Below, piece after piece: positions 26,419 through 29,400 of a stretch of DNA of 64,000 bases. Location: assembly GCA_020073185.1 (NCBI GenBank), contig JAIQFT010000013.1:62001-126000 (forward strand). The letters run 5' to 3'. Made by a program: the position numbers and the translations under genes. The notes under the pieces were generated by a model. The model was not told the DNA's origin, made no database searches, and was given only the letters and a program-made list of their open reading frames with translations. Origin of the DNA: Terriglobia bacterium. Lineage in GTDB: Bacteria > Acidobacteriota > Terriglobia > Terriglobales > Acidobacteriaceae. How positions within the stretch are numbered: the stretch's first letter is position 1; each line of letters begins with the position of its first letter.

Positions 26419-29400
26419 CTAGTCGGAAGCGGCCAGTTGCGGGCCGGGCTGCGCTACCCGTCCCGCCGACAGGTCATCGAGCAGCTGCTTGAGGCGGGTG
26501 AGGATGTCGGCGGCGGCGGTGGATTGGAGGCAGAACTTGAGCACGCCGGCGGGGGTGAATTGCGCGCGCGTTTGCGCAGCGACGAAACGCGCCAGCCGTT
26601 CCGGGTCAACGGCGGCGTTGCCGCTGAAACGAATGCTGACCAACTCCCGTTTGCGCTCGATGCCGGACACGCCCACACGCTGCGCCATCAACTTCAGGGT
26701 GGCGTAGGCGAGCAAATTGCGCACCGCGACGGGCGGCTCGCCGTAGCGATCTTCCAGTTCGGCGCGCACGTCGTTCAACTGCGACTCGCTTTCCACCCCG
26801 GCAACGCGCTTGTACATGCGCAGGCGCTGGTTTTCCTGCGGGATGTATTCGGCGGGAATGCGGATGTTGAGGCCCAGGTTGAGTTGCGTCTCGACCTCTA
26901 CGGCCGTGACTTCGCCTTTCAACTCGCGGACCGTGCGCTCCAGCATCGAAGTGTAAAGTTCGAATCCGACCGCATCAACGTGGCCGCTCTGCTCGCCGCC
27001 GAGCAGATTACCCGCGCCGCGAAGTTCCAGGTCGAGGGCGGCGATCTTGAACCCGGCGCCGAGGTCGGAAAACTCTTTCAGCGCGGCGAGACGACGGCGG
27101 GCGAGCGGAGTCAATTCCGTGTCCGCCGGAATCAGCAGGTAAGCATAGGCGCGGCGGTTGGAGCGCCCGACGCGCCCGCGTAACTGGTACAGCTCGCTCA
27201 GGCCGTGGCGGTCGGCGCGATTGACGATCATGGTGTTGCAGAGCGGGATATCGAGGCCATTTTCGATGATGGTCGTGGCCACCAGCACGTCGGCGTCGTG
27301 CCGCATGAACGCCAGCATGACTTTTTCCAGCTCGCTCTCGCTCATCTGGCCGTGTCCCACGATCACCCGCGCCCGCGGCGCCAATTCCTGCACGCGGGCG
27401 GCGATTTCGTAGATGGTGTCCACGCGGTTGTGCACCACGTAGGCTTGGCCGCCGCGCTCCAGCTCGCGCTCAATGGCGGACTTGACCAGCTTTTCGTCCC
27501 AGGCGGCGACCACGGTTTCTATCGCAATGCGATCTTTCGGAGGCGTCTCGATCACGCTCATGTCTCGCAGGCCGACCAGCGACATGTGGAGCGTCCGCGG
27601 GATGGGCGTGGCCGACATGGTAAGCACGTCCACCTCTTTCTTGAGTTGCTTGAGCCGCTCCTTGTGGCGCACGCCGAAACGCTGCTCCTCATCCACCACG
27701 ACCAGGCCGAGATCGGAAAACTTGATGTCCTTGGAGAGGAGGCGGTGCGTGCCGATCAGGATGTCTACCTTGCCCTGCTCGACCTTCTCGACGATCTCCT
27801 TCTGCTGGCGGGCGGTGCGGAAGCGACTGATCATCTCCACCGTGATGGGAAAGGCGGCGAAGCGGCGCTTGAAGGTTTCGTAGTGCTGGAAGGCCAGCAC
27901 CGTAGTGGGGGCCAGCACCGCCACTTGCTTGTTGTCGCTGACCGCCTTAAAAGCGGCGCGCATGGCCACCTCGGTCTTGCCGTAGCCGACGTCGCCGCAG
28001 AGCAAACGGTCCATCGGCTGCGGCTGCTCCATGTCCCTTTTCAAGTCCACGATAGCCTGCGCCTGATCCTCGGTTTCGTTGAACTCGAAGGCGTCTTCGA
28101 ACTCGCGCTGCCACTCGGTATCGGACGGGAAGGCATGCCCCTCGGCCGTGTTGCGCAGGGCGTAGAGCTTGAGCAGTTCGTCGGCCATGTCCTTCATGGC
28201 CTTCTTGACGCGCGCCTTGGTCTTGGCCCATTGCTGCGTGCCGAGGCGGTTGAGCACGGGCTTGACGCCGCCCTCCGCCGAACGGTATTTCTGCACCAAA
28301 TCCAAACGCGTGAGCGGAACGTAGAGGCGCGCGCCCTCGGCATACTCCAGGATCATGAACTCGGCTTTGTCGCCGTCGGCCTGCGCGATCTCCTTTAGCC
28401 CCTGGTACTGCCCGATGCCGTGCTCGACATGAACGACGTAGTCGGCGACGGCAAGATCGCGGAAGTCGGAGATGAAGGCGCTGGTTTTGGATTTGGAGCG
28501 CTGCGGGCGGACGATGACGTCTTCCGGTTCGTCAAACAGGTCGCGGGCGCCGAAAACGACCAAGCGGGCATCAGGAAGGGCGACGCCATCCGGCACACTT
28601 GCTTTTACCACAGTTGTAGTAGAGTCAACGCCCACCAAATAGGCGGCATCGTCCAGGTAACTTTCGCCCGGATGCGGGGTGCGCGAACCCAGGCGGAAGG
28701 GCACGCCGTAGTCGCTGAAGAGGTCGGCGACGCGTTCCACCTCGCCGGTGGAGGCAGCGGCAAACAGCACGCGCTTGCCCTCGGCCGACAGTTTCTTGAC
28801 CTCGTCCACCATGGCGGGCACGGAGCCGTGAAAACGGGTCGTGGGTTGGGACAGGAAGCCGAGGGTCGATGGTCGCTGGTCGATCGCAGCATCAGTGTCG
28901 GCGGTCGACGGTCGACGGTCGACGGCAAATTCTTCCAACGCGAGCCCGAGGCGCTGAAGATCGGCGCGGGGCAAGGTGTTCAGCTTGCCCTCGAACTCGT
29001 CGGGCGCGAGGTAAAGTTCCTCGGGGCGTACCAGGTTGCCGACGCCGCTGCGCGCGTGCATGTCGCGCACACGTCCCCACCAGCGCTCGGCTTCGGCACG
29101 CAGGTCGGCCGGCTCATCGGCGAGCACGGCAACGTTGGACAGCAGATCGAAGACGGTGTAGTCCGCGCCCGCAACCGCGGCATAAAACTCCCACCCCGGG
29201 AAGACGCCGACGCCGCCGGCGCGCACCGCTGCCTGGACCACATCATCCTCGCCGCTCACGCGTTTGCCGGAAAGCCGGGAATGAATCGCCGCCAGCGTGT
29301 CCTCACGCATGGGAACGTCGGTGAGCGGCAATAGCAGCGCCTCTTCTACAGATGTAGTAGAACGCTGCGTGCCGGGATCGAACTTGCGAATGGACTCGAC

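Follow-up and report, generated by a model that had tools for sequence, protein, structure and literature searches.

Heptad repeat arrays inserted in frame in Mfd, MnmG and other conserved proteins of a Terriglobia bacterium

The mfd and mnmG genes and their inserts

The window, the whole stretch of 64,000 nucleotides that was analysed, comes from a soil acidobacterium and carries the transcription-repair coupling factor gene mfd on the minus strand at 26419..30057 (1212 aa; TIGR00580, E=0, 1030.7 bits). The profile search found the Pfam domains UvrB_inter, CarD_TRCF_RID, DEAD, Helicase_C and TRCF in its product. The first-pass annotation had reported a heptad array inserted in frame in this gene, and the alignment with 80 relatives and with E. 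coli Mfd structures confirmed it. The insert comprises 20 codons at 28864..28923 on the minus strand, overlaps two heptad stretches, and encodes VDRRPSTADTDAAIDQRPST, residues V379-T398 of Mfd, in the linker preceding domain 3 (...LALEEFA-VDRRPSTADTDAAIDQRPST-LGFLSQPTTRFHGS...). Array 1 has the plus-strand words GTCGAC-G and occupies 28896..28927; array 2 has degenerate plus-strand words GTCGAT-G in the same orientation and occupies 28860..28882.

In the 80 acidobacterial Mfd loci, which were found by sequence, the flanks ...HLGI... and ...SQPT.RFHG... were conserved, and the gap between them usually held a few residues. At the corresponding place, the E. coli Mfd structures have only a short linker (EHLPTKAANANLGF) that follows the UvrB-like part, and the inserted segment is absent. 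The first-pass annotation had named its presence in Mfd of distant phyla as the finding that would refute the proposal, and this refutation failed. The linker with the insert, which we take to be the start of domain 3, lies well upstream of the RNA-polymerase interacting domain at 537-591 in the comparison with the E. coli structure. Among the 80 loci, the GTCGAY form was found only in the sister species L009 (Terriglobia MAG SRVP_22). The linker has kept a GTCGAY array in the sister species G001, has a decayed array in G003 and a different hairpin repeat in G002, and carries a GATCACC heptad in the distant relative L070. The Mfd linker is a reused repeat site.

The two Mfd arrays share their orientation, so they do not make a clean convergent pair, and the copy folds mainly through the self-complementary GTCGAC (RNA folding z -2.8). 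Because its arrays form a same-orientation pair, the Mfd copy is a weaker hairpin example. For Mfd residues 230-600, AlphaFold2 gave a model of low overall confidence (mean pLDDT 49), in which the insert is coil with a pLDDT of about 35, the better-predicted neighbours reaching about 79 and 82. The model weakly suggests that the insert is a disordered spacer. We believe that the insert most likely has no function and is a tolerated flexible spacer ahead of domain 3.

The gene mnmG (gidA) lies on the plus strand at 59506..61749 and encodes 747 aa (TIGR00136, 822 bits; PF01134; PF13932). Its site 1 is a heptad element with a short inverted left arm (59886..59936), which is extra relative to the MnmG crystal structure 2zxh, and HRPSTVDRR is residues 135-143 of the protein. 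Site 2 is a heptad element whose coding strand is G-rich (61026..61074). The RNA folding z was -1.8 for site 1 and -3.7 for site 2. An unrelated dispersed repeat (TGTCATCCCGAG... / TGTCATCCCGAGCGAGGG...), also protein-coding on the plus strand, belongs to site 2 at 61114..61151; near this position, G002 has a longer form and G009 has a CHSEERSDEE form. Site 3 (61277..61357, plus strand) consists of two in-frame REP-like hairpins (CCCGTAGGGGCG, CCCGCAGGGACG). An inverted repeat related to AGTCCCGCAGGGACG of site 3 also flanks a Y1_Tnp gene in G001 (L259), and a third copy of the REP-like core lies at 5200-5211 of the window.

As had been proposed, mfd and mnmG are encoded on opposite strands, and in both inserts the coding strand is the C-rich one of the heptads. 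The claim that a DNA repeat has given the non-homologous Mfd and MnmG a common peptide is likewise supported, HRPSTVDRR of MnmG being derived from the same heptad word. The two genes had been called essential-class, which is too strong: they are conserved housekeeping genes, and to our knowledge neither is essential in E. coli. The first-pass annotation missed three points: the common peptide can arise without a common insertion event, the Mfd linker is a reused site, and mfd and mnmG are two of at least ten conserved host genes in this genome.

Abundance and location of the heptad arrays

The 14-mer GTCGACGGTCGACG (at most 3 mismatches) had 33 matches in the window, compared with 16.2 +/- 5.0 in shuffles. 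Strict period-7 arrays numbered 35 in 445 kb of this genome, a sample in which some stretches were picked at pattern matches, compared with 0 in the Markov control and 0-3 for other periods below 14. Period-7 arrays dominate all short periods in this genome. Counted without this bias, arrays occurred at 14.1 per 100 kb across the window and at 6.4 per 100 kb across seven stretches taken from contig starts, and 50 kb of E. coli contained none.

The GTCGAY pattern was defined as GGTCGAYGGTCGAYGG with up to 1 mismatch. In the four genus members G000 (this genome), G002, G001 and G003, it had 121, 212, 183 and 30 matches, respectively, and in 146 other genomes of the family 0-8 each. The GTCGAY heptad is restricted to this genus. 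The reversed-pattern control was not neutral, and its counts were inflated because in this genome the reversed pattern GGYAGCTGGYAGCTGG is a heptad word in its own right (window 49934). Inverted GTAGCTG heptads lie at 49934-50013 of the window; read as GGTAGCTGG, this word is frequent in several other genera. The coexisting words include GTCGAYG, GAAACTR, CAGGCTK, AACTACC, ACTCGCA, GTAGTCC and others, and other genera carry heptads other than GTCGAY.

An inverted partner, defined as one within 150 nt with at least 13/14 matches, was observed for 28 of 80 looser arrays and for 0 of 80 random positions, and a direct partner for 3/80 and 1/80, respectively. The loops differed among the listed pairs, and only the heptad word was shared. 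The RNA folding z was -7.2 for Tgt, -6.1 for ImuA and -7.4 for DnaE2. For comparison, the window contains two intergenic convergent heptad hairpins, one with GTTTCC / GGAAAC words at 1947..2024 (z -4.4) and one with CCAGGCT / AGCCTG words at 34543..34617 (z -3.0).

A purpose-written simple codon-usage gene caller sorted the 80 looser arrays into 39 intergenic arrays, 9 at gene edges and 32 in genes. Words that are stop-free in six frames made up 27/32 of the arrays in genes and 22/48 of those elsewhere (Fisher P=0.0009), as expected if insertions are filtered by selection. GTCGAY words made up 18/32 in genes and 10/48 elsewhere (P=0.002). Among the distinct GTCGAY loci examined in this genome, 13/51 were gene-internal and 26/51 intergenic, against a coding fraction of 84.7%; in the sister genome G002, 10/21 were gene-internal.

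The HMM search identified the GTCGAY hosts of this genome as Mfd, MnmG, SMC, MetH, QueA, an Lhr-type helicase, DnaE2 and ParB, together with an ImuA-like RecA-fold protein and an ImuB-like polymerase adjoining DnaE2. Further hosts are a beta-propeller protein, the C-terminal extension of lumazine synthase, and a LiaG-like protein. In G002, the hosts included NrdJ (two elements), ValS, Lhr and DnaE2. Tgt carries another word in a CAGGCT-type hairpin. In the apparent ImuA-ImuB-DnaE2 mutagenesis operon (L175 2596-9085), all three genes contain heptad hairpins, ImuB and DnaE2 two each. The host genes show a suggestive skew to genome maintenance and tRNA functions, a skew to be read with the facts that three hosts form one apparent operon and that the criteria favour long genes.

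The arrays fall in sequence that is extra to the solved structures: about 173-198 of Tgt, 97-161 of ParB, where the insert splits the match to the N-terminal domain, 76-131 of QueA, and 134-144 and 492-652 of MnmG. The ParB of G002 (L181) has about 100 extra residues within its N-terminal domain and is still in frame; these residues comprise several heptad arrays and another repeat. The comparison of orthologues showed that the insert sites are empty in some genera (a few residues in ParB), are occupied by GTCGAY arrays of differing length in sister species, and hold other words in other genera. For example, the DnaE2 site has GTCGAY in G000 and G002 and GAAAC words in G003, all three being members of one genus; four other genera have GTTGTCA, GTTGCCA, AAGTTTC and GTCGCCA-type words there. 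The alignments indicate that the sites are conserved, not the repeat sequences, and the heptad sites have already diverged between the compared genomes. By comparing the DnaE2 and MnmG loops of different genera, one can measure directly how words replace each other at a fixed, in-frame position, and such measurements are relevant to the spread of these repeats in bacteria.

Origin of the shared peptide and relation to known repeats

A 7-bp tandem array has a reading period of 21 bp, and because 7 and 3 are coprime, all three frames of a strand give the same cyclic heptapeptide. For example, ACCGTCG gives RPSTVDR and ACCATCG gives RPSTIDH, and the opposite strand gives VDGRRST or DGRWSMV. In general, the GTCGAY-G words encode RPST[VI]D[RHQ] on the C-rich strand and VDG[RQ]RS[TM] on the G-rich strand. 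Their circular forms contain no stop trinucleotide on either strand, so all six frames are stop-free. GTCGAY-G survives in genes better than most words because it is stop-free in six frames and encodes one polar cycle. One word on the same relative strand in two genes therefore yields a shared peptide in any coding phase, and, as follows directly from the sequence, the identity of the Mfd and MnmG peptides requires no common insertion event. That the two inserts are one copied piece was also considered; it is an unnecessary assumption, coding phase being irrelevant to a 7-bp array. A pure DNA repeat can put one peptide into many unrelated core proteins, and annotators are warned against taking a shared peptide such as RPSTVDR for homology.

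Studies have shown that heptameric repeats exist in other bacteria. The words are GGGAATC / GGGANTN in Xanthomonas and GGGGA(T/C)T in Nostoc (PMC4692102). These repeats occupy about 186 loci per genome, mostly with few units, are 89-93% intergenic and are G-quadruplex prone (PMC4692102). The heptads in this study are similar in having degenerate, dispersed 7-bp units at many loci, convergent inverted pairs (28/80, the Mfd copy itself not being one) and rapid change between close species. In contrast, about a quarter to half of the sampled GTCGAY loci lie inside conserved genes, the words are not based on G tracts, and many words coexist. Of the known repeats, the heptads most resemble the mainly intergenic Xanthomonas heptads.

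Other repeats are known inside genes. Rickettsia palindromic elements are about 150 bp long with a family-conserved sequence (Ogata 2000, 2002, as summarised in PMC10969869). They resemble the heptads as in-frame repeats in many unrelated housekeeping genes that are tolerated in protein loops, but their conserved stretch is about 100-150 bp, whereas only the 7-bp word is common here and the loops and lengths are unrelated. Similarly, GTAG/CGTC REPs are known as inserts that keep the reading frame of DnaE2, of further genes for DNA synthesis and repair, and of tRNA enzymes (PMC3733652). A REP is a tagged palindrome of 20-40 bp, and GTAG types often lie near RAYT genes (PMC3733652). The heptads share with them the in-frame inserts in DnaE2, repair genes and tRNA enzymes; unlike them, they carry no tetranucleotide tag and show no enrichment around Y1 genes. 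The coding palindromes of Nematomorpha mitochondria are gained and lost dynamically, and template switching has been proposed (PMC6649704). They are, like the heptads, inverted repeats in coding sequence that come and go, but their arms are long and perfect instead of 7-bp units.

The heptads combine traits of these known repeats and fit the full definition of none; they behave like Rickettsia palindromic elements and intragenic REPs but lack the sequence features that define either. The literature that was searched contained no report of this phenomenon in Acidobacteria, and reports may exist outside it. In-frame bacterial repeats are known, and the heptad form and the word-by-word turnover at fixed protein sites look new. 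This case shows the sampling of protein loops by repeat DNA.

Proposed explanation and alternatives

We consider it probable that the Mfd insert belongs to a population of short, degenerate heptad arrays that is scattered over the whole genome and tolerated in frame in permissive loops. The arrays, often convergent pairs able to form a stem-loop, would multiply and spread as DNA. They may arise by slippage, and the second arm may be added by template switching on the nascent hairpin. Copies inside genes would be retained only if the whole insert has a length divisible by three and lies in a surface loop or linker, selection presumably removing all but the in-frame, loop-located, stop-free copies. 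The GTCGAY-G word has expanded in this genus, and other words in other genera. We infer that the inserts are neutral. Simple neutrality does not predict the skew of hosts to maintenance and tRNA functions, and slippage with template switching does not explain the dispersal of the GTCGAY word to about a hundred loci. A dispersal step is needed because independent slippage at each site cannot explain why one word dominates the genus. A tentative extension, which we think unlikely, is a lineage-wide system in which the fixed permissive sites (DnaE2, MnmG, Tgt, Mfd and ParB) serve as docking places and one heptad word after another is written into the hairpins there, by hairpin-templated conversion or by a dedicated unknown copying enzyme. 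If this is true, conserved proteins would gain fast-evolving disordered loops.

Compared with a tolerated array population, a functional nucleic-acid signal (a DNA uptake sequence, a site for a nucleoid or repair protein, or an mRNA hairpin) is doubtful. It would suit the skew of hosts to repair, replication and tRNA functions, the resemblance of convergent pairs to terminators, and the frequency of one word throughout the genus; a further point, a lead only, is that uptake sequences are enriched in genome-maintenance genes of Neisseria and Pasteurellaceae. However, the word changes at the same protein sites between genera and even within the genus (DnaE2 of G003), and the units are tandem and degenerate instead of one fixed motif. 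That selection acts on the protein, with the RPSTVDR spacer tuning Mfd and other proteins, is very improbable. The length and sequence of the insert vary freely, the Mfd of G002 has an unrelated repeat, and about ten unrelated proteins contain the peptide, with either strand as the coding one, although the peptide is polar, probably flexible and located in linkers of multidomain proteins, and three of four sister species keep the spacer in Mfd. We give hardly any credence to phase variation, in which gain or loss of a 7-bp unit would shift the frame and reversibly switch mfd, dnaE2 and imuB on and off. Tandem arrays of a unit not divisible by three inside mutation and repair genes invite this idea, and a phase-variation paper mentions heptameric repeats, a lead only; but slippage is lessened by the shortness (3-5 units) and degeneracy of the arrays, and the aligned orthologues are in frame.

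The array population might also consist of degenerate REPs mobilised by RAYT or another Y1 tyrosine transposase, which we regard as improbable, slightly more so than a nucleic-acid signal. Y1_Tnp matches occur in the genus (1-12 per genome), and REPs within repair genes are already known (PMC3733652). However, when the arrays were read directly, neither a conserved tag (GTAG or CGTC) nor a conserved sequence of the element was seen, and the heptad words differ between lineages. The Y1 transposases are an unlikely agent because many of their genes are bordered by inverted repeats of a separate, non-heptad kind and because heptads are not enriched around them: 16 arrays were found in 117 kb around 25 Y1 loci (13.6 per 100 kb), compared with 14.1 in the window. 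Apart from the heptads, tandem GACACGAGCCAGTCGTGCCCT units at 44437-44544 of the window resemble the GTATCAGGGCACGAC inverted repeats that flank Y1 genes (L244, L257), and they possibly represent a transposase-linked repeat family.
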